From positions 620,001 to 684,000 of the forward strand of contig NZ_JACCFK010000001.1 of the NCBI RefSeq assembly GCF_013410405.1: a stretch of 64,000 bases of DNA. Reading direction: 5' to 3'. Each line of letters opens with the position of its first letter. The stretch's first letter is position 1. A program made the position numbers and the translations under genes. The notes beneath the pieces were generated by a model. It saw only the letters and a program-made list of their open reading frames with translations. It searched no databases and was not told the origin of the DNA. This DNA is from Amycolatopsis endophytica. GTDB taxonomy: Bacteria; Actinomycetota; Actinomycetes; Mycobacteriales; Pseudonocardiaceae. Below, piece after piece: positions 1 to 40,645 of this stretch.

Positions 1-1486
1 GCACTGGCCCCTTCCGGTTGCGCACCGCGGCCTGGATCTCGGCAGTCAGCTCCTCGACGAACCCGGCGGCACGGCGGGCGGCTGAACGCACCACGACCAC
101 CGCGGTCACGGCTTCTCCCCATTTCTCGTCCGGCGTCCCCACCACGCAGACCTGCTCCACGTCGGGATGTTCGGAAATCACGTCCTCGACCTCCCGCGGG
201 AACACGTTGAACCCGCCGGTGACGATCATGTCCTTGATCCGGTCGACGATGTACCAATAGCCGTCCTGGTCTTCCCGAGCGAGGTCTCCCGTGTGCAACC
301 AGCCGGCACGGAACGTTTCCCCGGTCACCCGAGGTTGATTCCGGTAGCCGTGACCGAGCAGCGGTCCACTGACGCAGATTTCGCCCACCTCACCCGGGCG
401 CACCAGCTCTTCGTCATCGCCGAGGATCGCGCAGCGGGCGAACTGCGTCGGCCGTCCACAGGAAGTGTGCCGAGGCCCCTCGTGGCGGTACGTGGGCAGG
501 TACGTGATGGCCATCGGGGCTTCGGACTGGCCGTAGTACTGGGCGAAGATCGGACCGAAGTGCTCGATCGCCTCTGCCAGCCGCGCGGGGTTGATCGCCG
601 CCGCTCCATAATAGACGATCTGGAGCGACGACACGTCACGAGTGCGCAGGTCGGGATGATCCAGCAGCGCGTAGATCATCGACGGAACCAGCATGAGTGC
701 GGTGACCCGCTCCTTCTCGATCGTCTCCAGTACCGCGGCCGCATCGAACCGCGGCATCAGAACCAGCGTCCCGCCCTTGACCAGCACGGGGGTCACGAAG
801 GCCGCCCCGGCGTGCGAGAGCGGCGTGCAGCTGAGGAACCGCGGCCGGTCCGGCCATTCCCATTCGGCCAGCTGGATCGTGGTCATGGTGAAGTAGCTGC
901 CCGCCGAGAGCTGCACGCCCTTCGGCCTTCCCGTGGTGCCGCCGGTGTACACGAGGCTCGTGATGTGCTCGGGTGGCAGGGCGGCGGCGGCCGGCTGCCG
1001 CGGCGTGAACGTCGCGGCGTGCGCGACGATGTCGGTTGCGCTGTGCGCGAGCTCCGGCGGCACCGGACCGAACGTCAGGATCTGCCGTAGGGCTGCGACC
1101 CGGTCGAGGAGGGCCAGTGCGCGCTGCACGTACTCCGGGGTGGGTTCGATGATCAACGAGGTGACGCCGGCGTCGTCGAGAATGTAGGCATGGTCGTCCA
1201 GTGAACCCAGCGGATGCAGCGCCACCCGCTGGTACCCGCCGATGTGCGTGGCAGCGATGTCGATCACCACTTCGGGGCGGTTGCCGGAAAGGATCGCCAC
1301 GGTCGACCCGGTTCCGGCCCCCAGATCCTCGAAGCCCTGCAGGTACCGGCTGACCTCGTCAGCCAGCTGGGCACCGGTGTAGGTACCGGACCCGGACGAG
1401 AGCACTGTCCGGTCCGCATGCCGGCGCAGCGACTCGGCGATCAGGTGCCCATTGTGGTTGGGCCGGTGCAAGCCGTCGGTCTGCAT
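1..1486 (-). CDS. AMP-dependent acyl-CoA synthetase/ligase (3' end cut by window edge)
   Basis: ATP-dependent activation of a carboxylic acid to its CoA thioester through an acyl-adenylate; cytosolic. The reading frame runs from ATG at 1486 (MQTDGLHRP...) to the window edge without a stop, about 495 codons of an expected 510-530, so only the extreme C-terminus is missing. Visible ANL motifs are the P-loop YTGGTTGRPKG, the aromatic/E motif YYGQSEAP, the adenylate-binding HTGDLAREDQDGYWY, the hinge region IVDRIKDMI and the C-terminal GGFNVFPREVEDV. The start lies 46 bp inside the 3' end of the upstream oxidoreductase gene, so the two are probably co-translated as the tail of the catabolic operon. 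Substrate is not determined; the context suggests an aromatic or ring-cleavage acid. Family sure, substrate inferred. Confidence 0.93.
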   Translation of the reverse strand, partial: MQTDGLHRPNHNGHLIAESLRRHADRTVLSSGSGTYTGAQLADEVSRYLQGFEDLGAGTGSTVAILSGNRPEVVIDIAATHIGGYQRVALHPLGSLDDHAYILDDAGVTSLIIEPTPEYVQRALALLDRVAALRQILTFGPVPPELAHSATDIVAHAATFTPRQPAAAALPPEHITSLVYTGGTTGRPKGVQLSAGSYFTMTTIQLAEWEWPDRPRFLSCTPLSHAGAAFVTPVLVKGGTLVLMPRFDAAAVLETIEKERVTALMLVPSMIYALLDHPDLRTRDVSSLQIVYYGAAAINPARLAEAIEHFGPIFAQYYGQSEAPMAITYLPTYRHEGPRHTSCGRPTQFARCAILGDDEELVRPGEVGEICVSGPLLGHGYRNQPRVTGETFRAGWLHTGDLAREDQDGYWYIVDRIKDMIVTGGFNVFPREVEDVISEHPDVEQVCVVGTPDEKWGEAVTAVVVVRSAARRAAGFVEELTAEIQAAVRNRKGPV

Positions 1487-4400
1487 AGCGTTTCGAACTC
1501 CTCCAGAAGCGTGGCGAGCCGCTCGTGATAACGGTCCGCACTGTCGACTTTGATCTGTTCATAACCGCGGATCTCGTCCGGAAGCTTCGCCATCTCCACC
1601 GCGACAGGGTGATTGCGGGAGGTCAGCCCGGCCGACAGCTTGCGCAACATCGTGCTGTACTCGCCGATCAGGTCACGTTCCAGTCGGCGAACCCTGGTGT
1701 AGCCGAACAAGTCCAGTGGTGTCCCGCGCAGCCGGCGCATCGCCTTCAACACCCGGAACACCGGTGTGGCCCAGCTGCCGAGCTTCAGCTTGTTCCGCAC
1801 GCCCCACGCGCGCAGCATGGGCGGATGCAGGTGAACGTACCTCTTGGCGCCGGTGCCGAACTGCTCTTCCACCTGCGATCTGAACTCGCGGTCCAGCGCG
1901 AGCCTGGCCACTTCGTACTCGTCCTTGTAAGCCATCAGCTTGTACAGGTACCGTGCCGCCGCCTCGGTCAGCGCGGTCGAATCCGGCACAGCGCGACTTT
2001 CCGCCTCGCGCACCTGATCGACCTGCCTGCGGTAGCGTCCGGCGTAGGCGGGGCTCTGGTACTCGGCGAGATCGGCGGCCCGCAACTCGATGAGGCGCTG
2101 GAGGTCGTCGCCGGAGGTGCCGTCGTCGGGTTCTGCGGCACTGTCCGTAGCCGAACCCGTGTTCGCCATCTGCCACCGGCCCAGCCGGAACGCCTGGCGG
2201 TTGCGGTCGACCTCGACCCCGTTGATGTCGATGGCGCGTTCGATCGCCTCGCTCGATACGGGCAGCCGGCCGGTCTGGAACGCCGCGCCGAGCAGGAGGA
2301 CGTTGCTGAACTGCTCGTCTCCGAATGCGTCGAGGGCAAGCCGGCCGGCGTTCAGTGCGACGCAACGCCTGCTGTCCTGCGCGATTGCCGAGTGCAGGTC
2401 GGCGAAGTCCGGTAGCTCCAACGATGTGTCGGCGACCATCTGCCCGGTCGGGATCCGCGCCGACGAAACGATCGCCACCGTCCGCTGTGGGCTGAGCACG
2501 TTCAGGTTCGCGGGGTCGGCTCCGGCCAGCGGGTCGGACACCAGGTAGACATCGCAGGAACGTGCGCTGAGCTTGCCCGAACGCGGAACAGGTTCCGTCG
2601 AGATCTTCAGATCGGAGACCACGGCGCCGCCTTTCTGCGCCAGCCCGGTCTGGTCGAGACTTCGCACGTGCTTCTCGTCCAGTGCAGCGGCCGTCGCCAG
2701 TAGCTGGGCGATGGTGACGATTCCGGTGCCGCCGATGCCCACGATGCGGACCTGCGCTTCGGCGGGCGGTGCGCCGGTGGGCGACGGGATGGAGCCGGCA
2801 TCGATGACGCTCGGTACTGCCGCCGGGTTTCCGCGCTCATCCGGGACCACCGTGACGAAGGAAGGGCAATCCCCGCGCAAGCACGAGAAGTCGAGGTTGC
2901 AGGAAGACTGGTGGATCTCGGTCTTACGACCGAACTCGGTCTGCACCGGCCGGACCGACAGGCAGTTCGACTGGACGCCACAATCACCGCATCCTTCGCA
3001 GATGCGCTGGTTGATGACGACGCGTTCGGCCGGGGACGGGGCCAGCCCGCGCTTGCGCTTCCGGCGCTTCTCCGCCGCGCACTCCTGATCATGAATCAGC
3101 ACGGTGACGCCGTCGATGGAGGCCAGGCGCGCCTGCTCGGCGTCGAGCTCGTCACGATGCTTGACGGTGACGTCGCGGCCGAGCCGAGCCTCCTTACGGG
3201 TCCGCCGGACATCGTCAGTGGTGACGACGACCTCGGCAACTCCCTCCGCCCGGAGCGAATCGATCACGCGGCGCAACGCCATTCCGCCGGCCGGATCCTG
3301 TCCGCCGGTCATCGCCACGGCGGAGTTGTACAGGAGCCGGTAGGTGATGTTGGTGCCGGACGCGACCGCGGCACGCACCGCGAGGCTGCCCGAATGCGTG
3401 AAAGTGCCGTCCCCGATGTTCTGCACGAGCCGGTCCTGGTCGATGAACGGCGCCATGCCGAACCACTGGGCGCCCTCCCCGCCCATCTGTGTCACGCCGA
3501 GGACGTTCCCCGCCTGCTCCTCGTTCATCACCATCACGAGACCGTGACAGCCGATTCCGGCACCGACCAGGGTTTCCCTGTCGGTGCGAGTGGAACCGTT
3601 GTGCGGGCAGCCGGAACAGAAGTACGGTGTGCGCGCCATCACCGGCAGCTCGATCCGAGCGGGCGGCCGTGATTGCCCGAGCCATCGCCGGACCGGCTCC
3701 ACCTCGTGGATCTCGCCGAGCCGCCGGGCCAGTCCGGTGATCACCCGGTCCACGTCGAGCTCGCCGGACGGGGAGAACAGTGTCCGTCCCTCGTGGTCAT
3801 GCTTCCCGACCACGACGGGAGCGGCCACACCCGCGTAGAGAATGTCCTTGACCGCGGTCTCGAGGAAAGCGCGCTTCTCCTCGACCACGATGATTTCCCG
3901 GAGACCCTTCGCGAAGCGCCGGACGATCAACGGATCGACCGGGTTGACCATGCCCAGCTTGAGCAGCCGGATTCCGTGCCGGGCCAGTGTTGCCGGATCC
4001 CCCAGCCCCAGTCGCGCCAGCGCTTCCCGCACATCGAGGTAGGTCTTGCCTGCCGCGACGATGCCCAGGCGATCCGCACCGGTCGTCTCGGTGATGGCAT
4101 CGAGTCCGTTCGCGCGTGCGTAGTCCAGGGCTCTCGGGAACCGCCGGGTGAGAAGACTGTGTTCGAGCGCGGCGAGGTTCGCCCCGATCAGCTTCGCGGA
4201 CGGCCGGTGCCTGCTCGGCTCCAGATCCGCCACCGTCGGGCTCACTCGATCGGGGTGGACGACAGCGGTGCTCGCGCCGTCGGCGACCGCGGTGGTGATT
4301 TTGAGCGCCGACCACGTCCCGGTGAACCGGGACAGATGAGCGGCGTGGATGCCGTAGTCCAGGATCTCCTGCGAATCGGCGGGATACAGCGTCGGCAGGT

Positions 4401-4920
4401 ACAGATCGGCGACGGCCGCCTCTGATGAACAGGGATAGGTCGAGGACTTTCCCGCCGGGTCGTCGCCGATGAGCGCGACCGCGCCACCCTGCGGGTCGGT
4501 GCCGATCAGGTTGGCGTGCCGGATGGCGTCGGAGGCACGGTCGAGCCCGGGGGATTTGCCGTACCAGTATCCGGTCACGCCGTCCGGACGCAGCGCACCG
4601 GCCTGACGGGCGAGCTGGGTGCCGGCGACGGCGGTCGCGGCCAGCTCTTCGTTGACCGCCGGGCGGTGCACGACCTCGACATCGTCGAAGAGCTCGAGCC
4701 GCCGCGCCAGCTCCAGATCGTAACCGGCGAGCGGGGACCCTTCGTAGCCGGTCACGAAGCTCGCCGAGCGAAGCCCCCGGCGGTCGTCGATCAGTGCCCG
4801 GTCCCGGATCATCCGAACCAGCGCCTGGATACCGGTGAGGTAGACGACGCCGTCGGAAGCCAGATAACGATCGTCCAGCCGCCACCGCGAATCCGCCGCG
4901 GCGCCCCGCCCGCCGCTCAC
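1441..4920 (-). CDS. Fused indolepyruvate:ferredoxin oxidoreductase-type enzyme (2-oxoacid oxidoreductase)
   Basis: 1159 aa. Family members oxidatively decarboxylate aryl-2-oxo acids (indolepyruvate, phenylpyruvate) to acyl-CoA, reducing ferredoxin. Domain order: N-terminal pyrimidine-binding TPP domain (start to about residue 400); PP-type TPP domain with CSGCPHNGSTR, GIGCHG and the GDGTFTHSG motif near residue 500; an iron-sulfur region near 640-700 with CEGCGDCGVQSNC and a second cysteine group (SSCNLDFSCLRGDC); a gamma-type domain starting VRIVGIGGTGIV; and a long C-terminal extension of about 250 residues typical of the single-chain proteobacterial/actinobacterial form. GTG start at 4920 overlaps the TGA of the upstream monooxygenase (GTGA), so it is translationally coupled. 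Sitting among oxygenase genes is odd because many relatives are oxygen-sensitive. Exact 2-oxoacid unknown. Confidence 0.9.
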   Translation of the reverse strand: MSGGRGAAADSRWRLDDRYLASDGVVYLTGIQALVRMIRDRALIDDRRGLRSASFVTGYEGSPLAGYDLELARRLELFDDVEVVHRPAVNEELAATAVAGTQLARQAGALRPDGVTGYWYGKSPGLDRASDAIRHANLIGTDPQGGAVALIGDDPAGKSSTYPCSSEAAVADLYLPTLYPADSQEILDYGIHAAHLSRFTGTWSALKITTAVADGASTAVVHPDRVSPTVADLEPSRHRPSAKLIGANLAALEHSLLTRRFPRALDYARANGLDAITETTGADRLGIVAAGKTYLDVREALARLGLGDPATLARHGIRLLKLGMVNPVDPLIVRRFAKGLREIIVVEEKRAFLETAVKDILYAGVAAPVVVGKHDHEGRTLFSPSGELDVDRVITGLARRLGEIHEVEPVRRWLGQSRPPARIELPVMARTPYFCSGCPHNGSTRTDRETLVGAGIGCHGLVMVMNEEQAGNVLGVTQMGGEGAQWFGMAPFIDQDRLVQNIGDGTFTHSGSLAVRAAVASGTNITYRLLYNSAVAMTGGQDPAGGMALRRVIDSLRAEGVAEVVVTTDDVRRTRKEARLGRDVTVKHRDELDAEQARLASIDGVTVLIHDQECAAEKRRKRKRGLAPSPAERVVINQRICEGCGDCGVQSNCLSVRPVQTEFGRKTEIHQSSCNLDFSCLRGDCPSFVTVVPDERGNPAAVPSVIDAGSIPSPTGAPPAEAQVRIVGIGGTGIVTIAQLLATAAALDEKHVRSLDQTGLAQKGGAVVSDLKISTEPVPRSGKLSARSCDVYLVSDPLAGADPANLNVLSPQRTVAIVSSARIPTGQMVADTSLELPDFADLHSAIAQDSRRCVALNAGRLALDAFGDEQFSNVLLLGAAFQTGRLPVSSEAIERAIDINGVEVDRNRQAFRLGRWQMANTGSATDSAAEPDDGTSGDDLQRLIELRAADLAEYQSPAYAGRYRRQVDQVREAESRAVPDSTALTEAAARYLYKLMAYKDEYEVARLALDREFRSQVEEQFGTGAKRYVHLHPPMLRAWGVRNKLKLGSWATPVFRVLKAMRRLRGTPLDLFGYTRVRRLERDLIGEYSTMLRKLSAGLTSRNHPVAVEMAKLPDEIRGYEQIKVDSADRYHERLATLLEEFETLCRPTACTGPTTMGT

Positions 4921-6653
4921 CGTGCGAGGACCGTCTCGACGGCTGCGGCGAGCGTCACCGCAGGCTGGTCGTCACCGGACATACTGCGCCACGCGACGTG
5001 GTTGTCCGGGCGGACGAGCACGGCACCGTCCTCGCCGATCTGCCGCACGGCCTCCCATTGGCCGTCCACGTCGTGGTGCGTGTTCCCGACCTGAGCCGTC
5101 GCGATGGTGATGCCCAGTTTCTCCGCGACCTCCGCGGCCGCGGCAACCCATGCGCCGCCCCGGCTGCCCGTGATCAGAGCGACGGTGTCGTCGGCACCGA
5201 CGAGGTCATGGGTCGACGACCGCTTGCCTTCCTTCTCCAGCCAGGCGTGCGGCAGCCGATGGCCCGGGCGGGTCGTGGGCTGGTAAACCTGCCCGAGCGG
5301 GTCGCCCGCGGCAGGCACCGACCCGTCCGGAACCACTGCGCCGCTCTCATACGCGAAGCCCATTTCGAGTTCCTGTGCGCAGAACTCGATGCACTGGGTT
5401 TCGACGACCTTTCGGAACCGGGTTCGCCGGGCCTGGCCCACCAAGCCCTCGGCGAAGAAGCCGCCGATGAGCAGCTGGTCCACTTCGGGCGGCAGGGGGA
5501 ACGGGATGCGGCCGAATCCCGCATCGATGGCGAGGTGGTTCTGGGCCGCGAACATGGCCCACTCGACGTTGCGCAGACCGACCGGCTGCCGCTCCGCCCC
5601 ATAGCTGTCCAGCAGGCGCGCCGGCGCGTGTCCTCGAAGGACGGTCGCGAGTTTCCAGACGAGGTTGTGCACGTCCTGGATGCCGCTGTTGAGGCCGAGA
5701 CCGGTCGTCGGCGGCACTCGGTGCGCGGAGTCGCCGACCAAGAGAACCCGGCCGTCCTGATACCGCTCCGCAAGCACCGACTCGGCCCACCAATGACTGA
5801 TCTTCTTGACCACGATGTCGACATCGGTGCCGATCAGCGCACCGATCTTCCGCACGATTTCGGCGTTGTCGGGCACGGGATCACCGGGGAACACCGCGAA
5901 GTGCGCCACCCATTCCTGCGAGCCCGCGCCCCAGGTGGGGCCCATCGGCACCAGTCGTCCACCGCTGGGCAGGAAGTGGGAAATGATCACCCCCTCGGTC
6001 CACCAAGGGGACAGATCGGCGGACACGTGGGCGGTGATCGTCTCGAAGACCTTGGATGCGCCGACCATGCCTATTCCGAGAAGCCTGCCGAGCGTCTTGC
6101 CACCGTCCGCGCCGACCATGTAGTCGGCGTGCACCGAATGCACCTCGCCGGTGGCGATCTCGCGTACCGACGCGTCGACTCCCTGATCGTCCTGGACGAA
6201 TTCCAGGAGTTCATGACCGAACTTCACCGCATCGGCGTTTCGGTCCCGCGCTGCGGCGAGCAGCAGCGGTTCGAGGCGCAGCTGGGGCAGGTTCGTCGGT
6301 GGGCACACCGAGTGACGCCGGTACTCCACGGTGGAGTCGCCGGCACCGAAGCACTCCATTTCGAAGAGCTGCTTGCCGTCGAAAGGGCCGTCTCCCGCCA
6401 GCGTGGTACGCCACTCGACCTTCGACATGTCCTTCAGCGGAATGCCCTGCGCATAGACCGCATCGGCCAGGCCGAACTGCCGGAAGATCTCCATGGTGCG
6501 CGGATTCAGGTAATGTGCCTTGGGCAGTTCGGACGTCGACTCGTGGCGCTCGACGAGCAGATGGTCGATTCCGTAGCCGGACAGCATGATCGATGTCATC
6601 AGCCCGGTACCGCCGCCGCCGACGATCAGTACCGGTACCTCGAAGTGCGCCAC
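4917..6653 (-). CDS. FAD-dependent aromatic monooxygenase (PheA/TfdB/MhpA family)
   Basis: 578 aa group A flavoprotein hydroxylase, expected to use NAD(P)H and O2 to add a hydroxyl to a phenolic ring. The N-terminal Rossmann motif VLIVGGGGTGLMTS (residues about 8-21), the DG-type region (YMVGADGGKTLGRLLG) and the FAD ribityl-binding GDSAHRVPPTTGLGLNSG (about 305-320) are all present. The last ~180 residues match the thioredoxin-like C-terminal domain of phenol hydroxylase and 2,4-dichlorophenol monooxygenase relatives (VALITGSRGGAW). ATG start at 6653, 63 nt downstream of the NTF2-like gene's stop. It is the likely hydroxylase that prepares the ring for the extradiol enzyme encoded upstream in the same operon. 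Substrate not deducible. Confidence 0.93.
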   Translation of the reverse strand: MAHFEVPVLIVGGGGTGLMTSIMLSGYGIDHLLVERHESTSELPKAHYLNPRTMEIFRQFGLADAVYAQGIPLKDMSKVEWRTTLAGDGPFDGKQLFEMECFGAGDSTVEYRRHSVCPPTNLPQLRLEPLLLAAARDRNADAVKFGHELLEFVQDDQGVDASVREIATGEVHSVHADYMVGADGGKTLGRLLGIGMVGASKVFETITAHVSADLSPWWTEGVIISHFLPSGGRLVPMGPTWGAGSQEWVAHFAVFPGDPVPDNAEIVRKIGALIGTDVDIVVKKISHWWAESVLAERYQDGRVLLVGDSAHRVPPTTGLGLNSGIQDVHNLVWKLATVLRGHAPARLLDSYGAERQPVGLRNVEWAMFAAQNHLAIDAGFGRIPFPLPPEVDQLLIGGFFAEGLVGQARRTRFRKVVETQCIEFCAQELEMGFAYESGAVVPDGSVPAAGDPLGQVYQPTTRPGHRLPHAWLEKEGKRSSTHDLVGADDTVALITGSRGGAWVAAAAEVAEKLGITIATAQVGNTHHDVDGQWEAVRQIGEDGAVLVRPDNHVAWRSMSGDDQPAVTLAAAVETVLAR

Positions 6654-6716
6654 TGCATTCTCCTTTTCGCACGCCGGAACGGACTCGCTGCCCGGCCGGT
6701 CACCGAGTCGTGGGCC

Positions 6717-7151
6717 TCAGAACTCACCGATGACGAAAGCCGGCGTCAGCGTCCGTTCGGCGATCCGCCAGTGTCCGTCGTCGCCGAGCCGGTACCGGTC
6801 CTCGACATCGGCGACGACCACCTGGGGAATCCCGGCGTCGCCGACCCGGCGGTAGACGGTGAGGATGATCGATCCGCGCACCCGGCCGGGGCTCTCGGCG
6901 CGCAGCCGGGTGTTGGATACGACGTGGCGGGAGCGAATGTCCCGATTGCGCGCCCGTTCTTCGAGGTGGCGGCGGATGTCGATGATCCCGCTGACCACCC
7001 GGTCCCCGGTCGACAGGATCGCGTCCTCGGTGAACAGCTCCGCCGCCCGGTCGGCGCTTCCGTGGTCGACGAGCCAGGAGTACTCGGTGGACAGTGCTTC
7101 GATCGCACGGCGCGTGTCACCGTCGAGGACGGCATCGGATCCGACAGCCAT
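6717..7151 (-). CDS. NTF2-like / SnoaL-like fold protein (ring-hydroxylating dioxygenase beta-subunit type)
   Basis: 144 aa. Small alpha+beta barrel protein resembling scytalone-dehydratase/SnoaL and dioxygenase small-subunit families: EALSTEYSWLVDHGSADRAAELFTED at the N-terminus, VVSGIIDIRRHLEERA, and a final strand pair with RYRLGDDGHWRIAERTL. I chose ATG at 7151 (MAVGSD) because it is 11 bp after the stop of the upstream VOC gene; a longer open frame to 7424 would overlap that gene. Such proteins act as isomerases, dehydratases or cofactor-free accessory factors. The role here is unknown but operon membership ties it to the aromatic pathway. Confidence 0.88.
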   Translation of the reverse strand: MAVGSDAVLDGDTRRAIEALSTEYSWLVDHGSADRAAELFTEDAILSTGDRVVSGIIDIRRHLEERARNRDIRSRHVVSNTRLRAESPGRVRGSIILTVYRRVGDAGIPQVVVADVEDRYRLGDDGHWRIAERTLTPAFVIGEF

Positions 7152-7162
7152 CGTCGCGCCCT

Positions 7163-7759
7163 TCACATCGTGCGGACGGCGTCGAGCCCGCCCGTCCCGG
7201 TCTCGGGCCGCTTGCGCAACTCGGTTTCCGGTACGCCGTCGTGGAATCGGCGGACGAATTCGTCCGCGTCGAGATTCACTCCGATCGGGTTCTTGGGGAA
7301 TTCCGCGGTGAGGAACTCGTTGGTTTCCTCGATCGTGGCGAAGTTGTCGACCTGCAGCTCGAGCTGGTTGTTGTCCGGGTCGCGGTAGTAGAACGAGATC
7401 GTCGGCCCGTGGTTGATCGTCCAATACGGTTCGATGTCCAGTTTTTTCAACCGCTCATAGGTCGCCACGAGGTCGCCGAGCGTGGCGTAGGTGAAGGCGA
7501 TGTGCTCGAGCCCGGCCGCCATGACCGGGCGTTCCGCCAGCGTCGGCACGCCCGCGATCGCCACGCGGTGGTGCTCCTCGTCAAAGGTCAGAAAGCACAT
7601 GGCGCCCGGAGCCTCGAACGACGTCCGGGCGCCCAGCACTGTCCGGTACCACGTGACCATGTCGTCGTATCGCGTCGTACGCAACACGACGTGTGCGAGC
7701 CGGTCCGGACTGACGGACGCCCCCGCCGTCGCCGGTTGCGGCGACCTCTCCTGTGACAC
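7163..7759 (-). CDS. VOC-family extradiol dioxygenase-like protein
   Basis: 198 aa, two beta-alpha-beta-beta-beta modules of the vicinal oxygen chelate fold. The type I extradiol metal triad can be placed as His23 (RLAHVVLR), His86 (GLEHIAFTY) and Glu134 (NNQLELQV), which would bind Fe(II) for ring cleavage of a catechol-type product. It is shorter than classical two-domain (about 290 aa) extradiol enzymes, so it is a one-domain type or a related isomerase. First gene of the minus-strand operon, and its 5' region is shared with the divergent FAH-family gene. It likely acts after the monooxygenase; catechol cleavage itself is inferred. Confidence 0.85.
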   Translation of the reverse strand: MSQERSPQPATAGASVSPDRLAHVVLRTTRYDDMVTWYRTVLGARTSFEAPGAMCFLTFDEEHHRVAIAGVPTLAERPVMAAGLEHIAFTYATLGDLVATYERLKKLDIEPYWTINHGPTISFYYRDPDNNQLELQVDNFATIEETNEFLTAEFPKNPIGVNLDADEFVRRFHDGVPETELRKRPETGTGGLDAVRTM

Positions 7760-7796
7760 TGCGACCTCCCGATCTCCGTGTGGGGTTTGTCTGTCC

Positions 7797-7823
7797 TATC
7801 ATTGTTCTTGATAGCAGTATCAA
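7797..7823. promoter_or_regulatory. Palindromic operator in divergent promoter region
   Basis: Between the divergent VOC-enzyme gene and FAH-family gene lies TTGATA-GCAG-TATCAA (7808-7823), a perfect 6-bp inverted repeat. A third TATCA box at 7797-7801 pairs with the central TGATA to form a second, overlapping inverted repeat. The region is AT-rich against a GC-rich background. Likely binding site of the TetR protein encoded nearby; this is inference from position and symmetry. Confidence 0.6.
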
Positions 7824-7915
7824 ACTAGGATGTCGTCGTAGCCGGTGTCAAGCCTCCGGCCCGCACTCCGCGCCGGAGCCGGCGATCGTCAACCACAGGA
7901 AGGGCAAGGAAAAAG

Positions 7916-8767
7916 ATGCACCTTTACCGGACGTCGCGAGGACTCGCTCGTCGCGACGGAGATGACCTGCTACTGCTCGACCTGCCCTATCCGGACGTGG
8001 CGGCGCTGTGTCGAGCCGGTGTCGACCAGGCGTCGACCGCGCCCGTCCTGGCGCGCGTCATGGTCGACGAGGTCGAATTGCTCGCGCCCGTGGAGAGGCC
8101 GTGCCGCATTGTCGTGGTCGGACTCAACTACCGCAGCCACGCGGCGGAGACCGGCGCCGAGATTCCCGCTGAGCCCACATACTTCTGCGTGGACGGTGGA
8201 CCGACGGCCGGACCCGGCGACCCGATCGTCCTGCCGCCGGCCGCGCCGGACTTCGTGGATTACGAAGGTGAAGTCGGCGTGGTGATCGGACGTGCCGCGT
8301 ATCGGGTACCGGTCGGCGAGGCGTGGAAGTTCGTCGGCGGGCTGACGTGCGTCAATGACGTTTCGGCCCGGGACCTGCAGGCGGCCGCTTTCGGTGAGCC
8401 GGGATCACCGGGCCTCGGCCTTTCGAAGGCGCTGGACACGTTCAAACCACTCGGCCCGGCAGTCGTCACCACCGATTCGTTCTCGTCGCCGCTGGACCTC
8501 CGCGTGACGACCTCGGTGAACGGCGAAATCCGGCAGCGGTCCAGTACCGCTGATCTGATCTTCGACATCCCGCAGCTCGTGTCGACGATCTCGCGAATGG
8601 TCACCCTGCTGCCGGGCGATGTGATCTGCACGGGCACGCCATCCGGGGTCGGGGCGGCGACGGGCCGCTTCCTCCGGTCCGGTGATGTCGTCGAGGTCGA
8701 CGTCGAGGGCATCGGCACCCTGCGCAACCACGTCGTCGACTACCAGCCGGTGACCACGCCGTCGTGA
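7916..8767 (+). CDS. Fumarylacetoacetate hydrolase (FAH) family protein
   Basis: 283 aa. The family hydrolyses C-C bonds of acylpyruvates or isomerises ring-cleavage products such as 2-hydroxyhepta-2,4-dienedioate. The core motifs are present: VVVGLNYRSHAAETG, the metal-binding acidic set DYEGEVGVVIG, then CVNDVSARDLQ, KALDTFKPLGP, and the C-terminal GDVICTGTPSGVG. About 75 N-terminal residues form the usual small cap domain. ATG at 7916 follows an AGGGCAAGG ribosome site. It is divergent from the dioxygenase operon and ends exactly where the convergent TetR gene stops. It probably processes the extradiol cleavage product. Confidence 0.92.
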   Translation: MHLYRTSRGLARRDGDDLLLLDLPYPDVAALCRAGVDQASTAPVLARVMVDEVELLAPVERPCRIVVVGLNYRSHAAETGAEIPAEPTYFCVDGGPTAGPGDPIVLPPAAPDFVDYEGEVGVVIGRAAYRVPVGEAWKFVGGLTCVNDVSARDLQAAAFGEPGSPGLGLSKALDTFKPLGPAVVTTDSFSSPLDLRVTTSVNGEIRQRSSTADLIFDIPQLVSTISRMVTLLPGDVICTGTPSGVGAATGRFLRSGDVVEVDVEGIGTLRNHVVDYQPVTTPS

Positions 8768-9442
8768 TCAGTCCGGCCGGGAGGTCAGCAAGCCGCCCAG
8801 CGTCAGGTCGATGGTGACCCGCGCGTGAGTCTCGACGGCATCCGGGTCCGCGTTGTCGATGCCGTGCATCCGATCCATCAACGCACCGGTCATGAAGAAC
8901 GACGAGGCGCTGCCGACGAGGAAACGGGCGACGTAGGGCGTCGGAAGGTCGTCCCGGATCCGGCCCGCTTCCTGGCCGAGTTCGATCAACTTGGCGAAAT
9001 GCCGCTCGAGCGGTGCGATGTAGGTGTCGGTCAGCCAGCGGACCCGGTCCGTCGCGAACTGCGATTCACTCGCCAGCACCGGGGCGACGCTGGGATGCCG
9101 GGCGAGGAACGAGATGTGCCGCCGGATCAGCACCTGCAATGCCGATACCGGGTCCAACTCCTTGAGCTCGTGATTGAGTTCCTGCTGCACCAGCAGTTCG
9201 CTGAACGCCTTGCCGATCGCCTCGCGCCAGAGCTGGTCCTTTGACTCGAAGTAGTAATGCATCAACGGCTGCGCGACCCCGGCGCTGCGTGCCACGCCGG
9301 ACATGGACGTGCCTTCGTAGCCGGAGCGGGCGAAGCAGTCGATCGCCGTCTCCAGAATCGCCTCTCGGGTGGCCGCGCGTCGCTGCGGCACTTCGGTGGA
9401 CTTGGCCCCTTTGCCGCCGCGACGTGGTGCTGCAGCTGACAT
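8768..9442 (-). CDS. TetR-family transcriptional regulator of the catabolic cluster
   Basis: 224 aa. The N-terminal helix-turn-helix (TREAILETAIDCFARSGYEGTSM, then GVARSAGVAQPLMHYYF) lies at about residues 25-75 after a basic lead. The rest is an all-helical ligand-binding domain. Its stop codon directly abuts that of the FAH-family gene (8767/8768), and it is divergent from the amidohydrolase gene across a 170-bp region containing a palindrome. Expected to repress the flanking catabolic genes until an aromatic ligand binds; this is inferred from position. Confidence 0.93.
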   Translation of the reverse strand: MSAAAPRRGGKGAKSTEVPQRRAATREAILETAIDCFARSGYEGTSMSGVARSAGVAQPLMHYYFESKDQLWREAIGKAFSELLVQQELNHELKELDPVSALQVLIRRHISFLARHPSVAPVLASESQFATDRVRWLTDTYIAPLERHFAKLIELGQEAGRIRDDLPTPYVARFLVGSASSFFMTGALMDRMHGIDNADPDAVETHARVTIDLTLGGLLTSRPD

Positions 9443-9579
9443 AGCCCCTTCCTCCTGGTATTTCGGCCTTCGCGCGAATCACTGCTCCGCCGTCCCGGCC
9501 AGGTGTGGCCACCAGCTAATCACGGTAGGCGGACGCGCCGGGCCGACGGTGCCCGGCGAGCCCCGGCAGCATCTTGCTT

Positions 9580-9604
9580 GCGTAATAAATATTTTGTATT
9601 ACGC
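9580..9604. promoter_or_regulatory. Palindrome just upstream of the amidohydrolase start
   Basis: GCGTAATA-N9-TATTACGC, a perfect 8-bp inverted repeat with an AT-rich spacer, ends 8 nt before ATG 9613. The TATCAAAC box that follows it (9605-9612) also occurs at 7818-7825 in the other divergent region. Candidate TetR operator overlapping the promoter; the short distance to the ATG suggests a leaderless or very short-leader transcript. Confidence 0.6.
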
Positions 9605-9612
9605 TATCAAAC

Positions 9613-10620
9613 ATGGAGTCATTGCGCGTCATCACGGTCGAGGAGCACTTCCACCATCCCGAGGTCAGCGCCGAGGTTCGTGCGCTCTCGGGGCCGCTGC
9701 CGGTGACGCCCGACGAAGGGTTCGCCACGTTCGTCCAGGACGAGTTCATGCCCGATCAGGACTCTGCCGAGCGCCTCGGCGGCAGTCGCCTCGCGCACAT
9801 GGACAAGGCCGGGATCGACGTCCAGGTGGTGTCGCACGGCGCGTTCAGTCCCACCAACCTCGACCGCCCGGAGGCCGTCGACCTCTGCCGCCGGGTGAAC
9901 GACCGTTTGGCACTGCAGATTTCCGAACATCCGACGAGGTTTCGCGGGTTCGCCACCATCCCCCTGCACGATCCGGCCGCGGCAGCCGACGAGATGAAAC
10001 GATGCGTGCACGAACTCGGTTTCGTCGGCACCCTGATCACCGGAACCTGCGGCGGCCGGTTCCTCGACGACGAACGTTTCGACCCGGTCCTTTCCGCGGC
10101 CGAAGCGGTGGACCTGCCGATCTACGTGCATCCGGGCTTCCCGGACAACTCCGCGGTGGCCGGCTACTACGCGGGAAACTGGCCCGCGGCAGTCCAGTTC
10201 ACGTTCGCCACGCACGGTTTCGGGTGGCACATGGAGGCCGGTGTCCACATCCTCCGGCTCATCCTGTCCGGCGCGCTGGACCGGCACCCCGGCCTGAAAC
10301 TGCTGAGCGGGCACTGGGGCGAGTTCGCAGCGGGATGGCTGGACCGCTTCGACGGGACGTTCGCGAAGACCCGCTACCTCGAGCGCGATGTGAGTGACTA
10401 CTACCGCGACCACGTCTGGATCACGCCTTCCGGCATGTACACCCACAACCAGCTGAACTATCTGCTGGGCGAGGTCGGGGCCGACCGCATCATTCATTCC
10501 GAGGATTTCCCGTACCTCGTGCGCGACGACGTCGCGGGCTTCCTGGCCGACGCCGATCTCCCGGACGACCAGCGGCACGCGATCGCGCACCGCAACGCGG
10601 AGCAGTTGCTGCGGATCTGA
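9613..10620 (+). CDS. Amidohydrolase family decarboxylase (ACMSD / gamma-resorcylate decarboxylase type)
   Basis: 335 aa TIM-barrel metalloenzyme. Metal ligands can be assigned by analogy with gamma-resorcylate (2,6-dihydroxybenzoate) decarboxylase: Glu10-x-His12 (TVEEHF), His173 (IYVHPGF) and Asp298 (IHSEDFPY), with a further conserved His234 (SGHWGE). The Glu-x-His start rather than His-x-His is typical of the resorcylate decarboxylase branch. Reaction expected: metal-dependent non-oxidative decarboxylation of a hydroxy-aromatic or muconate-type acid. It heads a plus-strand unit with the downstream dehydrogenase. No clear ribosome site precedes the ATG. Substrate is inferred only. Confidence 0.9.
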   Translation: MESLRVITVEEHFHHPEVSAEVRALSGPLPVTPDEGFATFVQDEFMPDQDSAERLGGSRLAHMDKAGIDVQVVSHGAFSPTNLDRPEAVDLCRRVNDRLALQISEHPTRFRGFATIPLHDPAAAADEMKRCVHELGFVGTLITGTCGGRFLDDERFDPVLSAAEAVDLPIYVHPGFPDNSAVAGYYAGNWPAAVQFTFATHGFGWHMEAGVHILRLILSGALDRHPGLKLLSGHWGEFAAGWLDRFDGTFAKTRYLERDVSDYYRDHVWITPSGMYTHNQLNYLLGEVGADRIIHSEDFPYLVRDDVAGFLADADLPDDQRHAIAHRNAEQLLRI

Positions 10621-10668
10621 ATCCGTTCCGCATCCCGCTGTGCATGTGAAACGAACAGGAGCCAACCC

Positions 10669-11679
10669 ATGAAAGCAATCCAGATGACCGAAACCGGTAC
10701 CGCCGACGTGCTGAAGCACGTCGAGCTCACAGACCCGGTTCCGGCGGCAGGCGAGGTGCTGATCCGCGTCGAGTCGGCCGCGGTGAACTTCGCCGACGTC
10801 GCACGTCGACGTGGGGATCGGTATCCCGATCCGACGCCACTGCCCTTCACCCCCGGCGCCGAGGTGGCCGGCACCGTCGCGGCCGTCGGCGACGATGTGA
10901 CCGGGGTCGGAGTCGGGACCCCGGTGTTCGGTTCGGTGGGACCCTACGCCAACGGCGGTTACGCGGAATTCTCGCTGGCACGACAGTCCAACGTCATCCC
11001 GTTGCCCCCGGGCGTCGATCCGGATCTGGCGGCGGGCCTCCTGGCGGTCGGACTGACCGCGACGTTGATCCTGACCGAGACGGCCAACCTCGCCGAGGGC
11101 CAGTCCGTCTTCATCCCGGCCGCGGCCGGCGGAGTCGGCAGTTACGCCGTCCAGATCGCCAAGACGCTCGGCGCGAGCACGATCATCGCCGGCGCGTCGA
11201 CCCCGGAGAAACGGGAAATCGCGCTGCGCCACGGCGCGCACCACGCCATCGACTACCGCCAGGAGAACTGGCCCGCACAGGTTCGCGAACTGACCGACGG
11301 CAAAGGCGTCGACGTCGGATTGGACATGATGGGCCCGAAGCACCTTCCGGCCACGCTGTCGGCCCTCGCCCCCTTCGGCCGGCTGGTCACCTACGGAGCA
11401 ATCACCGGGCTGGACGGGCAACACCTCGACGGAGACGCGCTGACTCCGCTGATCTACGACCCCGCGCCCGGACAGTCGCTGACCGGGTTCAACCTGGGCG
11501 CCTGGTTCGCACTGCGCCCCGAGAGGGCGATCGGTGGGCTGGGCCGGCTGCTCGGCTGGATCTCCGAGGGCAAGGTCACCGGCCCGACGATCCACCCCAT
11601 GCCACTGGCCGAAGCCGCCGAAGCCCATCGGCTGCTGGAAAGCGGTTCGGCGACCGGCAAGCTCATCCTGAAACCGTGA
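10669..11679 (+). CDS. Zinc-independent MDR alcohol dehydrogenase / NADPH:quinone oxidoreductase-like
   Basis: 336 aa medium-chain dehydrogenase/reductase. The GroES-like N-terminal half (MKAIQMTETGTADVLKH... AVNFADVARRRG) leads into a Rossmann domain with AAAGGVGSYAVQIAK and a GADHAIDY-like segment (GAHHAIDYRQE). Structural-zinc cysteines and catalytic Cys/His ligands are absent, as in quinone oxidoreductases. A ribosome site (ACAGGAG) precedes the ATG. Spaced 48 bp after the amidohydrolase, so probably one transcript. It may reduce a quinone or unsaturated keto intermediate of the pathway. Confidence 0.92.
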   Translation: MKAIQMTETGTADVLKHVELTDPVPAAGEVLIRVESAAVNFADVARRRGDRYPDPTPLPFTPGAEVAGTVAAVGDDVTGVGVGTPVFGSVGPYANGGYAEFSLARQSNVIPLPPGVDPDLAAGLLAVGLTATLILTETANLAEGQSVFIPAAAGGVGSYAVQIAKTLGASTIIAGASTPEKREIALRHGAHHAIDYRQENWPAQVRELTDGKGVDVGLDMMGPKHLPATLSALAPFGRLVTYGAITGLDGQHLDGDALTPLIYDPAPGQSLTGFNLGAWFALRPERAIGGLGRLLGWISEGKVTGPTIHPMPLAEAAEAHRLLESGSATGKLILKP

Positions 11680-36669: not shown

Positions 36670-38180
36670 GCTTCCTCCAGTGCGGTCAGGACGGCTCCCG
36701 AACGGACGAGTTCCTCGGCGGCCGCGATCTCCGGTGCGAGGTGGCGGTCCGGGCCCGGCGCGGGCACGCGTTCCCGGAGCAGGTCGCGGGCCGCGGCCGT
36801 CACCGGCGCGGGGCGCAGCGGCGCGCGGAAGTCGAGCGCGCGGGCGGCGGTCAGCAGCTCGATCGCCAGCACGGACGTCAGCCCGTCGACCGCGCGACGC
36901 AGCTTGCGGGCGGCGGACCAGCCCATCGAGACGTGGTCCTCCTGCATGGCGCTGCTGGGAATCGAGTCGACCGAGGCGGGCACGGCGAGCCGCTTGAGTT
37001 CGCTGACGATCGCCGCCTGCGTGTACTGGGCGATCATGTGCCCCGAGTCGACGCCGGGGTCCTCGGCGAGAAACGCGGGCAGCCCGTGCGAGCGGGTCAC
37101 GTCGAGCATGCGGTCGGTGCGGCGTTCGGCGATGCTGGCGACGTCGGCGATCGGGATGGCCAGGAAGTCCAGGACGTAGGCCAGTGGCGCGCCGTGGAAG
37201 TTGCCGTTCGACTCCACCCGTCCGTCGGCGAGGACGACGGGGTTGTCGATCGCCGCGGCCAGTTCCCGGTCGGCGACCGCCTCGGCGTGCGCGACGGTGT
37301 CACGGGCGGCGCCGTGCACCTGGGGCGCGCAGCGCAGTGAGTAGGCGTCCTGCACGCGGGTGCACTCCGGGCCGCGGTGGCTGGCGACGATCTCCGAACT
37401 GGCGAGCGCGGCGAACATGCGGCGCGCGGACGCGGTCTGACCCGGGTGCGGGCGCAGCGCCTGCAGGTCGGCGGCGAAGGCTCGGTCGGTGCCGAGCAGA
37501 GCCTCGACGCTCATCGCGGCTGTGAGGTCGGCCGTGTCGAGAAGGCGGTGGAGGTCGTCCAGGGCGAGGACGAGCATGCCGAGCATCCCGTCGGTGCCGT
37601 TGGTCAGCGCCAGGCCCTCCTTCTCGGCGAGGGTGACCGGTTCGAGGCCCGCCTCGGTGAGCGCTTCGGCAGCCGAGCGGCCGTCGACAAGCTCGCCCTC
37701 ACCCATCAGGGCGAGCGCGACGGCCGCGAGCGGCGCGAGATCGCCGGAACAACCCAGCGAGCCGTATTCGTACACGACCGGAACCATGTCCGCGTTGAGC
37801 ATCGCGGCCAGCGCTTCGGCGGTGGCCGGACGGACACCGGTGTGCCCGGAAGCGAGCGTGCGCAAGCGGAGAAGCATCAGGGCGCGCACCACTTCCGGCT
37901 CGACGGCGGTGCCGGTGCCGGCGGCGTGTGAGCGGATGAGGGACCGCTGCAGTGCGGTGCGCCGGCCGGCCGGGATGTGGCGGATCGCGAGGGCGCCGAA
38001 GCCGGTCGAAATGCCGTAGGTCGGCCGGTCGGCGTCCGCGAGCGCGTCGATGTGGCGGCGGATCTCGCCGAGGTTCTCGCGCACCTCGTCGGACAGCTCG
38101 ACCCTCGCACCGTTCCGTGCGACCGCGACGACCTGCTCCCGGTCGAGGGGCCCGTGGTCCATCCGCACTGTGCGCGTCAT
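36666..38180 (-). CDS. hutH: Histidine ammonia-lyase
   Basis: 504 aa; removes ammonia from L-histidine to form trans-urocanate, first step of the pathway. The MIO prosthetic group would form from Cys144-Ser145-Gly146 ([13 protein letters not shown]), the Cys variant of the common Ala-Ser-Gly; the family signature allows Ser, Ala or Cys here. The entry motif YGISTGFG is intact near residue 55. First gene of the operon, divergent from the IclR regulator across 72 bp that contain its operator. Confidence 0.97.
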
Positions 38181-38233
38181 GTGCCTATTGGACCTCGCCC
38201 GGCGGGTGACCGGAGGTCACCGCGGAGTGGTTG

Positions 38234-38251
38234 TGTCTGGTATTCCAGACA
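38234..38251. promoter_or_regulatory. Palindromic operator for the hut IclR regulator
   Basis: TGTCTGG-TATT-CCAGACA, a perfect 7-bp inverted repeat, ends one base before the iclR-type ATG (38253) and 54 bp from the hutH ATG. Position and symmetry indicate autoregulation and control of the hut operon; both are inference. Confidence 0.72.
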
Positions 38252-38252
38252 G

Positions 38253-39023
38253 ATGAGCGACGTCCCCGCCCTGCGCCGCGGTCTGGCGGTACTGCGCGTC
38301 CTGGCGACCCGTCCAGGGCCGATCTCGGCCGTCGCGCTCGCCCGCGATCTGGACCTGCCGCGCTCGACGACCTACCACCTGCTGGCGGAGCTGGAAGCGG
38401 CGGGTTTCGTCGTGCACCTGCCGTCGGAACGCCGCTACGGGCTGGGCATCGCCGCGTTCGAGCTGGGATCGGCCTATCTCCGGCACGACCCGCTGGAGCG
38501 GCTGGCGGCACCGTTGCTGCGGAAGCTCGCCGACCGGACGGGGCACACCGCGCAACTGGGGGTCCTGCACGGGAACGAGCTGGTGTACCTGCTGAAGGAA
38601 CGCCCGCCGGCGCCGGAGACGCTGGTGACCGACGTCGGTGTCCGGCTGCCCGCGCACCTGCCTGCCAGTGGGCTGGCGCTGCTGGCGCATCTGCCGCACG
38701 CGCACGTCCGGGCACTGTACCCGCGTGCGTTCGTCACCCGGACCGGGCGAGGCCCCGCGTCACTGGCCTCGCTACGACGCGCACTGGCCGCGGTGCGCGC
38801 CCGGGGCTGGGCGGTCGAGGACGGCCACGTGACCGCCGACTTCGCCTCGGTGGCGCACGCGGTGTTCGACCACAACGCCCACCCGATCGCCGCCGTGGCC
38901 CTGACCTTCCGGCACCACTGCGACCCGCCGTGCGACGGCACCTGGCCCGAGCCGGCGGCACAGGTCATCGCCACGGCGCGGACGCTCACGGACCGGATCG
39001 GTGGCCGCCGGCCCGGTGCGTGA
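38253..39023 (+). CDS. IclR-family regulator of histidine utilization
   Basis: 256 aa. The winged helix-turn-helix (RGLAVLRVLATRPGPISAVALARDLDLPRSTTYHLL) occupies residues about 9-50, followed by the IclR effector-binding domain (LRKLADRTGHTAQLGVLHGNELVYL, LPASGLALLA). Divergent from hutH, so it most likely senses a pathway intermediate such as urocanate. The palindrome abutting the ATG leaves no room for a ribosome site, suggesting a leaderless mRNA. Confidence 0.93.
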   Translation: MSDVPALRRGLAVLRVLATRPGPISAVALARDLDLPRSTTYHLLAELEAAGFVVHLPSERRYGLGIAAFELGSAYLRHDPLERLAAPLLRKLADRTGHTAQLGVLHGNELVYLLKERPPAPETLVTDVGVRLPAHLPASGLALLAHLPHAHVRALYPRAFVTRTGRGPASLASLRRALAAVRARGWAVEDGHVTADFASVAHAVFDHNAHPIAAVALTFRHHCDPPCDGTWPEPAAQVIATARTLTDRIGGRRPGA

Positions 39024-39072
39024 CGATTTTCCCACCGCACAGCGGAACCTCGAACGTCCAGGACGGAGCGAC

Positions 39073-39800
39073 ATGACGGCGGTTCTCCATCAGCCCCTCG
39101 CGCCGACGCGGTCGCAGGTCCTGGCCCGGGAGCGCGAATCGCCCTGCACCGGCACGAGGAACACCAGGTGATCTACGCGAGCAGTGGGCTGCTCGCGGTC
39201 ACGACGGCCGCCGGTTCCCGGGTGGCACCACCGGATCGTGCGATCTGGGTGCCCGCCGGAGTCGATCATGAACACGACGCGTACGGCATCGTGTCCCTGC
39301 ATCTCGTCGCGACACCCGAGGACATCGACGGACCCGACCCGGGTCCTGCGGGTCACCCCACTGTTGCGGGAGCTGCTCAAGGAGCCCGCGGGAGCCGTGA
39401 CCACCGACGCGGAGACCCAGCAGCGCCTGCACGCGGTCCTGCGGGACCAGCTGCGCATGGCGCAGCACATGCCGGGTTTCCTCCCCGCGCCGACCACACC
39501 GCTGCTTCGCGACGTCGCCGCGATCTTCCTCGCCAACCGGCCGACACCCGGACGCTGGCCGAGCTGGGGCGAAGCGTCGGGGCGAGCGAACGGACGCTCT
39601 CCCGTCTGTTCCGCACCGACCTCGGGATGAGCTTCCCGCAGTGGCGGGGCGGCTGCGGCTGCATCACGCGCAGGCCCTGCTCGCCGAAGGTGTCCCCGTG
39701 ACGACGGTGGCGCACCGGTCTGGCTGGTCCTCGGCCAGCGCGTTCATCAGTACGTTCAAGGGGACCTTCGGCTACACGCCCTCGCTGAGTGAGGCGCAGG
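39073..39800 (+). pseudogene. AraC-family regulator broken by multiple frameshifts
   Basis: From ATG 39073 the expected AraC protein is scattered over the three plus frames: HEEHQVIYASSGLLAVTTAAG with VAPPDRAIWVPAGVDH (cupin-like sensor part), then RVTPLLRELLKEPAG with LRDQLRMAQHMPG, then RTLAELGRSVGASERTLSRL (first helix-turn-helix), then LRLHHAQALLAEGVPVTTVA with the second helix-turn-helix WSSASAFISTFKGTFGYTP. Frame changes occur near 39,140, 39,330, 39,545 and 39,640. All pieces are in order, so one full gene decayed in place. Confidence 0.88.
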
Positions 39801-39804
39801 GCGC

Positions 39805-40641: not shown

Positions 40642-40645
40642 GGAG

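Follow-up and report, generated by a model that had tools for sequence, protein, structure and literature searches.

A ferredoxin oxidoreductase gene joined to a hydroxylase–VOC–FAH core suggests an aerobic module for phenol catabolism in Amycolatopsis endophytica

Introduction

Two described systems come closest to the gene set presented here. In the 7-hydroxycoumarin route of Pseudomonas mandelii 7HK4, the hcdABC operon unites an FAD hydroxylase, an extradiol dioxygenase and an FAH-family hydrolase. Ring cleavage is followed by hydrolysis, and the authors suggested, but did not identify, succinate and 2-hydroxy-4-oxopent-2-enoate as products (PMC6222606, portions of the text). In the oestrogen 4,5-seco pathway of Novosphingobium (Caenibius) tardaugens, the edc cluster encodes EdcC, a member of the indolepyruvate ferredoxin oxidoreductase (IOR) family. 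Deletion of edcC impaired growth on oestradiol and led to the accumulation of a compound that may have arisen by addition of ammonia to the ring-cleavage product, suggesting that the ring-cleavage 2-oxo acid is the substrate of EdcC (PMC7793797, likewise in part). Oestrogen-degrading Actinomycetota lack EdcC homologues according to the relevant part of a review (PMC12507874). In A-ring cleavage by the fde (naringenin) and ifc (isoflavone) clusters, an FAD hydroxylase acts first and a ring-cleaving dioxygenase of the glyoxalase family second (PMC11303751, PMC4440368, PMC11069340, in excerpt). Here, we describe a related cluster at the left end of a window of 64,000 nucleotides from Amycolatopsis endophytica (contig NZ_JACCFK010000001.1, positions 620,001 to 684,000).

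Results and discussion

The features of the locus are listed in Table 1. An earlier note on this DNA had recognized a single-chain IOR, an FAD hydroxylase, an extradiol-type VOC protein, an FAH-family protein, a resorcylate-decarboxylase-like amidohydrolase, a quinone-type reductase and an acyl-CoA synthetase, and domain scans bore out these family assignments; the SnoaL_4 gene and the TetR regulator had been overlooked. The IOR matched its family model with 1443.5 bits (curated cut-off 816), while the ligase (810.6 bits for the in-window part only, cut-off 875) and the quinone-oxidoreductase-type protein (QOR; 212.2 bits, cut-off 296.8) stayed below theirs. For the Amidohydro_2 protein there was no NCBIfam match; the best solved structure was an unnamed amidohydrolase (3nur, 262.7 bits), with γ-resorcylate decarboxylase (3s4t, 151.4 bits) and 5-carboxyvanillate decarboxylase among the next matches.

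Table 1 Features of the cluster (positions within the window)
Feature	Position	Strand	Length (aa)	Basis
AMP-forming acyl-CoA ligase, FadD8-like	1..1486, on to -109 of the same contig (crossing the left window edge)	-	531	PRK06188
Single-chain IOR (indolepyruvate-ferredoxin-oxidoreductase family)	1441..4920	-	1159	PRK13030
Group A FAD aromatic hydroxylase	4917..6653	-	578	PF01494 + PF21274
SnoaL_4 (NTF2-fold) protein	6717..7151	-	144	PF13577, 3.8e-17
Single-domain VOC protein	7163..7759	-	198	PF00903 + extradiol residues
Intergenic region, divergent VOC (-) / FAH (+)	7760..7915			gene coordinates
FAH-family hydrolase/decarboxylase/isomerase	7916..8767	+	283	domain scan
TetR-family regulator	8768..9442	-		domain scan
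Amidohydro_2, resorcylate-decarboxylase-like protein	9613..10620	+	335	domain scan, solved-structure matches
Quinone-oxidoreductase-type MDR protein (QOR)	10669..11679	+	336	TIGR02824

The genes do not form the one operon assumed before, because those for FAH, the decarboxylase-like protein and QOR lie on the opposite strand, with the TetR gene in between. Strand and spacing define four units instead: VOC–SnoaL–FAD hydroxylase–IOR–CoA ligase, FAH, TetR, and decarboxylase-like protein–QOR. Within the first unit, the GTGA overlap reported between the hydroxylase and IOR genes was confirmed (4 bp, hydroxylase end at 4917, IOR start at 4920), and the IOR and ligase genes share 46 bp. The intergenic region presumably holds the promoters of both the VOC and the FAH genes. 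The two divergent regions of the locus have only one 8-mer and short palindromes in common, and their best 18- and 22-base matches were no better than those of 30 shuffled controls; we therefore claim no TetR operator.

By description, the window shares with hcdABC the core of FAD hydroxylase, extradiol dioxygenase and FAH-family protein, but the hcd operon, as far as described in the part used, has three genes and is devoid of IOR, ligase, SnoaL and resorcylate decarboxylase genes. Common to the window and the edc cluster is the combination of IOR, extradiol dioxygenase and ring hydroxylase, the latter being an FAD enzyme in the window and a P450 in edc. In the excerpted account, one edc operon holds the IOR-family gene, a VOC gene and the gene of an extradiol dioxygenase from the glyoxalase family; a TetR gene lies nearby, as in the window. 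The edc cluster also contains β-oxidation-like genes and a TonB receptor, whereas the CoA ligase was the only member of a β-oxidation set among the nine proteins encoded at 1–11679 and the 18 flanking ORFs scanned. An FAH protein is present in the window; none is named for edc in that portion of PMC7793797, the text of which does not contain the word "amidohydrolase". The hydroxylase–VOC pair is also that of fde and ifc, and our first idea was to assign the locus to this flavonoid family. This assignment was dropped because no IOR is described for those clusters in the excerpts at hand; the word "ferredoxin" is absent from the text of the ifc paper and from PMC4440368. Papers on riboflavin (PMC12746152, thiamine decarboxylase logic) and acetosyringone (PMC12911418, hydroxylase–VOC logic) were likewise set aside, their available parts being without the gene set of the window.

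To judge from its sequence, the IOR is intact. A GDG-N motif (GDG at 503, N 29 residues further) and 11 cysteines, which we take to be the thiamine motif and the Fe–S ligands, were invariant in all 86 aligned proteins. Homologues (E ≤ 1e-100) are encoded in 184 of the 346 genomes of the same family, so the enzyme is no sign of the anaerobic chemistry at which the earlier note had hinted. The VOC protein possesses the 2-His-1-Glu metal site of type I extradiol dioxygenases along with the catalytic His and Tyr: H86, H117, Y124 and E134 were found in 24/24 aligned proteins (the window among them) and H23 in 22/24, where H23, H86 and E134 presumably form the metal site and H117 and Y124 are the catalytic residues. 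The PROSITE pattern PS00082 matched 17 of the 24 rows and missed the window protein at a single position (Asn for Gly/Pro); with that position freed, 21 rows matched, including the window. The protein is predicted to be an Fe(II)-dependent, catechol-cleaving extradiol dioxygenase. In a Bradyrhizobium homologue, Glu replaces the first metal His, so this protein may catalyze another reaction; several long branches of the VOC tree were flagged as unsure. Residues H75, E78, E117, E119 and K171 of the FAH protein were invariant (6/6 aligned), and the best solved relatives of the FAD hydroxylase were 2,4-dichlorophenol 6-monooxygenase and 2-hydroxybiphenyl 3-monooxygenase.

We found hydroxylase, VOC, FAH and IOR genes co-located in Streptomyces atratus and Embleya hyalina as well (2 of 80 IOR loci), in one further genome of the class (L122) and on a Streptomyces plasmid (L146). 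Some hydroxylase matches reached only 27–30% identity, and our gene calls outside annotated records are approximate, having been made with a simple codon-GC script. The grouping of the four genes exceeds chance, and a TetR gene adjoins the module at all four places. On a tree of 86 IOR proteins, the six labelled module IORs, three of which are near-copies from Streptomyces, require at least four changes on well-supported branches; the IOR therefore seems to have been recruited to such clusters more than once. Members of at least three distinct actinobacterial lineages of the enzyme appear to have joined the core, which is new here. Because the association recurs across separate lineages, IOR and oxygenases appear to belong together, as the earlier note had proposed. 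The remaining 78 IOR loci showed no hydroxylase–VOC–FAH set in their available flanks, some of which end at contig ends. Such IORs without oxygenases, which the note had held against a coupling, do exist, but they show wide use of the IOR family and not that the cluster is an accident. Conserved co-occurrence across Pseudonocardiaceae was not borne out: the cluster is patchy in this family, since the VOC protein (E ≤ 1e-30) is confined to 17 of 346 genomes, counting the one to which the window belongs, and the window alone among 18 VOC places has an IOR within 12 kb.

We surveyed 34 VOC places from 32 genomes, the window included, and found a second type of thiamine enzyme near the VOC gene. 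An AceE-type 2-oxoacid dehydrogenase E1 was encoded within 12 kb at ten places spread over six families (0.13 expected), an IOR at three (0.17 expected), and both at none. Binomial significance is overstated, as the surveyed genomes are related, and the 12-kb limit was chosen after the VOC–IOR distance in genome G383 had been seen; the three IOR places include the window itself and G383 (IOR 10.2 kb, E1 39 kb away). An earlier class survey had recorded an IOR at 1 of 16 loci, the G383 IOR lying just past the stretch examined. No E1 was found at E ≤ 1e-100 in two genomes with an IOR adjoining the VOC gene (G000 and G363); E1 was likewise missing from G199 and G704, whose VOC genes have no IOR nearby. 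At 21 places, many on broken contigs, neither enzyme was encoded within 12 kb, so the step is non-universal or encoded elsewhere. The window hydroxylase is sister to that of Rhodococcus rhodochrous ATCC BAA-870 (SH-aLRT 99), whose pNit cluster carries, at 52% (VOC), 54% (hydroxylase) and 42% (FAH) identity, the same core together with a CoA ligase of the acetoacetate-CoA-ligase type, a SnoaL-type protein, an AceE-type E1 and an E2, and no IOR across the 29.7 kb examined; our general searches of open-access PMC text brought up no characterisation of this cluster. An AceE-type E1 thus seems to replace the IOR at the same step in related clusters.

We propose, at a probability of roughly 0.55, that the whole cluster is a module that breaks down a phenolic ring aerobically and in which the IOR converts a ring-derived 2-oxo acid to an acyl-CoA. 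According to their families, the FAD hydroxylase would add a hydroxyl group beside an existing one, the VOC protein would cleave the resulting catechol in extradiol fashion, and the FAH protein would hydrolyze or tautomerize the cleavage product. Using CoA and ferredoxin, the IOR would then oxidatively decarboxylate the 2-oxo acid, a step suggested by the reaction of its family, by EdcC and by the apparent exchange with AceE-type E1. Like EdcC, it may act on the product of ring cleavage directly; alternatively, FAH may release an acylpyruvate, which the IOR would turn into a 3-oxoacyl-CoA such as acetoacetyl-CoA. We suggest the latter only tentatively: FAH would give an acid and an acylpyruvate (e.g., 2,4-dioxopentanoate), the IOR would be an acylpyruvate:ferredoxin oxidoreductase and E1/E2 its NAD-linked substitute. 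As guesses from their families, the ligase would activate the remaining fragment, carboxylated phenols would enter through the resorcylate-decarboxylase-like enzyme, QOR may reduce an enone, and TetR probably controls the gene set. Our guess for the substrate of the pathway is a resorcinol-type phenol.

It is unlikely that FAH frees plain pyruvate, making IOR or E1 a mere pyruvate oxidase, or that the IOR is a passenger for amino-acid-derived 2-oxo acids. Close IOR relatives do occur in other settings, e.g., in Gordonia, where the neighbours, judged by eye, resemble a biotin-dependent carboxylase/acyl-CoA dehydrogenase set; the overlap with the hydroxylase gene and the repeated, separate association with the core argue against a passenger, and the housekeeping enzymes would presumably make one reserved for pyruvate superfluous. 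Quite doubtful is an upper-step role, in which the IOR would act before the ring is hydroxylated and make an aryl-CoA out of an aryl-2-oxo acid, be it an arylpyruvate or an arylglyoxylate. The naming of the family for an arylpyruvate, the many IOR genes lacking such oxygenases and the overlapping CoA ligase gene would fit this role, but phenols are what both the hydroxylase and the decarboxylase-like gene suggest, a second IOR is encoded in the genome, and an E1 lies near the VOC gene in place of the IOR at 10 of the 34 VOC places. E1 enzymes of the AceE type are known to use small 2-oxo acids. We judge the aryl-2-oxo acid that the earlier note offered as an example of a starting substrate to be less likely than a 2-oxo acid from ring cleavage. 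RdmE-like hydroxylases and SnoaL, VOC and QOR proteins are often encoded in polyketide clusters, and aklavinone 12-hydroxylase RdmE ranked second among the NCBIfam matches of the hydroxylase (310.3 of 700 bits, far under the cut-off). Even with a SnoaL_4 protein present, biosynthesis or modification of a natural product is highly improbable, given that FAH, decarboxylase and IOR are typical of catabolism, that the 13 upstream and five downstream ORFs scanned (three without Pfam match) include no polyketide or peptide synthase, and that a lanthipeptide-like pair lies 17–20 kb left of the window, non-adjacent.

Conclusions

The suspicion of an undescribed route thus stands in part: we found no paper on the whole set in open-access PMC text, but pieces of it are known from the portions cited, namely the hydroxylase–extradiol–FAH core that opens the ring (hcdABC) and the use of an IOR once extradiol cleavage has taken place (EdcC). 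New are the apparent joining of the IOR to this core in several IOR lineages and the alternation of E1 and IOR near the VOC gene in our survey. If the proposed reading is true, the logic of EdcC, in which aerobic ring cleavage involves a 2-oxoacid oxidoreductase linked to ferredoxin, would extend from oestrogen-degrading Pseudomonadota to Actinomycetota and other phenols, and a ferredoxin-linked and an NAD-linked thiamine enzyme that are unrelated to each other would swap at one step. The acylpyruvate route, if it operates, would be aerobic, spare one CoA-ligation step and yield reduced ferredoxin. An IOR or E1 gene beside hydroxylase, VOC and FAH genes may then serve as a genome marker for uncharacterised aromatic pathways.

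Organization and integrity of the gene cluster

The window (C1:620001-684000) lies in a genome of 7.2 Mb assembled in two contigs. The gene list of the earlier note was right, except that two genes had been missed, whereas the single operon it had proposed was not borne out: the genes are split over both strands (see table), and their layout, judged from strand and spacing alone, is therefore not that of one operon. The hydroxylase and IOR genes overlap by four bases and the IOR and ligase genes by 46 bases.

Genes of the cluster (window positions)
Gene	Position	Strand	Arrangement
VOC (extradiol-type protein)	7163-7759	-	first of the minus-strand run, read right to left
SnoaL_4	6717-7151	-	second in the run
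FAD hydroxylase	4917-6653	-	third in the run
IOR (single-chain indolepyruvate-ferredoxin-oxidoreductase family)	1441-4920	-	fourth in the run
Acyl-CoA ligase	end at -109, beyond the window	-	last in the run
FAH (FAH-family hydrolase)	7916-8767	+	divergent from VOC
TetR	8768-9442	-	after FAH
Decarboxylase-like gene	9613-10620	+	divergent from TetR
QOR (quinone-oxidoreductase-type MDR protein)	10669-11679	+	with the decarboxylase-like gene, divergent from TetR

Both divergent intergenic regions (7760-7915 and 9443-9612) contain short palindromes and a common TATCAAAC, possible TetR sites, neither of which exceeded shuffled controls in these regions. About 17-20 kb to the left of the window, genes for a lantibiotic-dehydratase N-terminal and a LanC-like protein (C1:600007-603243; L004:7-3243) may represent a lanthipeptide cluster.

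In a profile search, IOR scored above the curated cut-off of its family, and it has kept the thiamine motif and 11 cysteines, each invariant in all 86 aligned proteins. H86, H117, Y124 and E134 of VOC were present in 24/24 aligned proteins, the window's among them, and H23 in 22, with Glu at position 23 in locus L136 and in the Bradyrhizobium plasmid protein (L149). We take these five to be site residues of extradiol dioxygenases; judged from the alignment, the set is the pattern of the type I enzymes. The PROSITE motif matched 17 of the 24 rows, the window's VOC deviating at one position and thus giving no match. H75, E78, E117, E119 and K171 of FAH, presumably the catalytic and metal residues of acylpyruvases, were kept in 6/6 aligned proteins. 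The closest solved structures to the hydroxylase were 2,4-dichlorophenol 6-monooxygenase and 2-hydroxybiphenyl 3-monooxygenase, which we take to be ortho-hydroxylases of phenols. The Amidohydro_2 protein was nearest to an unnamed amidohydrolase, followed by resorcylate, dihydroxybenzoate and carboxyvanillate decarboxylases.

Recurrence of IOR with the core

Among the best 80 of more IOR loci, drawn from named genome records with at most 10 kb of flank and some ended by contig ends, the core (hydroxylase, VOC and FAH) occurred together at two, in Streptomyces atratus OK807 and Embleya hyalina, and was absent from the available flanks of the other 78. VOC matches were found in 16 of 394 genomes of the class at E <= 1e-20, the window's own included. 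The VOC places other than the window numbered 16, and at one of them (L122) FAH, TetR, VOC, hydroxylase and IOR are consecutive, an order shared by a plasmid of Streptomyces sp. NBC_00984; on three further Streptomyces plasmids, the VOC, hydroxylase and IOR matches adjoin by their coordinates. Plasmid p53363 of Bradyrhizobium guangxiense (peanut) carries genes for an FAD hydroxylase, SDR, IOR, carotenoid oxygenase, VOC, SnoaL_4, MFS, FAH and zinc dehydrogenase, a series broken by just one short hypothetical gene, and on six more Bradyrhizobium plasmids the IOR and VOC matches lie ~1.8 kb apart. The p53363 cluster spans 9386-21633 of L149; Glu replaces the first metal His of its VOC, and its carotenoid oxygenase is possibly of the stilbene-cleaving type.

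A tree of 86 IOR proteins, built by a quick method and leaving out genome G383, required at least four label changes on well-supported branches for the six labelled module IORs. As read without Bradyrhizobium, these occupy three separate places: the window's protein, three near-identical Streptomyces proteins, and Embleya.

On plasmid pSA1 of Novosphingobium resinovorum (L150), an unannotated stretch (37533-41713) encodes homologues of VOC (49%), SnoaL (38%) and TetR (34%) with an FAH-family gene within ~4 kb; a hydroxylase homologue (43%) lies ~16 kb from this group.

AceE-type E1 as an apparent stand-in for IOR

Besides the window, 33 VOC loci were retrieved; homologues of the hydroxylase (some matches only 27-30% identical) were present in 25 of them and homologues of FAH in 28. 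Many VOC loci also had a nearby orthologue of a gene of the Rhodococcus rhodochrous ATCC BAA-870 pNit cluster annotated as a transketolase-type protein. In profile searches, four such proteins grouped, under the curated cut-off, with homodimeric pyruvate-dehydrogenase E1 (AceE); domains were checked in three E1 proteins, and E1s outside the four were assigned by 60-78% identity to the pNit protein. The neighbour of the pNit E1 is an E2 that scores above the curated threshold for actinobacterial 2-oxoglutarate dehydrogenase E2.

Within 12 kb of 34 VOC places in 32 genomes, we found E1 at 10 (falling in six families), IOR at three (window included), both at none and neither at 21, with 0.13 (E1) and 0.17 (IOR) expected by chance from copy number and genome size; these counts include related genomes, the window as its own query and many short contigs, and the limit was chosen once the distance in G383 (10.2 kb) was known. 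Genomes G000 and G363, in which IOR adjoins VOC, yielded no E1 at E <= 1e-100, and G383 has one 39 kb away. In G199 and G704, neither enzyme adjoins VOC and the genome search returned no E1. Labels were scattered over the VOC tree, with four changes for IOR and eight for E1. In the hydroxylase tree (quick method without bootstrap), the window's protein was sister to that of pNit (SH-aLRT 99), and this pair comes closest in our set to a direct swap of IOR for E1/E2 in an otherwise retained core.

A region of ~42 kb in G383 (C28:298520-340113; L121, L169, L170) holds two VOC genes, one of them with a product 65% identical to the window's VOC, along with FAH, hydroxylase, IOR and E1/E2 genes; other proteins encoded there resemble, by eye, additional 2-oxoacid dehydrogenase parts. 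At L162, L163 and L164 (genomes G675, G679 and G727), VOC adjoins a CoA ligase and a protein that shares 23-25% identity with an enzyme of the acetolactate-synthase type. This protein may represent a third type of thiamine enzyme accompanying VOC.

Proposed role of IOR

IOR and 2-oxoacid dehydrogenases have a common net reaction, 2-oxo acid + CoA -> acyl-CoA + CO2. The hydroxylase-extradiol-FAH core is known from hcdABC, the ring-opening genes of Pseudomonas mandelii 7HK4, whose authors suggest that the ring-cleavage product is hydrolysed to succinate and 2-hydroxy-4-oxopent-2-enoate, products that they did not identify (PMC6222606). The latter is an acylpyruvate and thus a 2-oxo acid. In the oestrogen 4,5-seco pathway, the IOR-family protein EdcC appears to use the ring-cleavage product directly (PMC7793797). 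Given the shared net reaction, the hcdABC fragment and the EdcC precedent, IOR would convert a ring-derived 2-oxo acid to its acyl-CoA. Since FAH is also present, action on the acylpyruvate seems about as likely as the EdcC-like use of the ring-cleavage product. EdcC, HcdB, FdeC and IfcB were likened to the window's proteins by published description. The resorcylate-decarboxylase-like gene weakly suggests a resorcinol-type ring as substrate.

A review describes oestrogen-degrading Actinomycetota as lacking EdcC homologues (PMC12507874), which our cluster does not contradict because nothing links it to oestrogens. Within the available text of the open-access PMC literature, a scope outside which most subscription journals fall, we recognised no description of the whole gene set or of the IOR/E1 exchange. 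The cluster is real and sensible, with pieces that are partly known; what is new is the recurrent IOR and, as gene neighbourhoods suggest, the use of an AceE-type E1 in its place.
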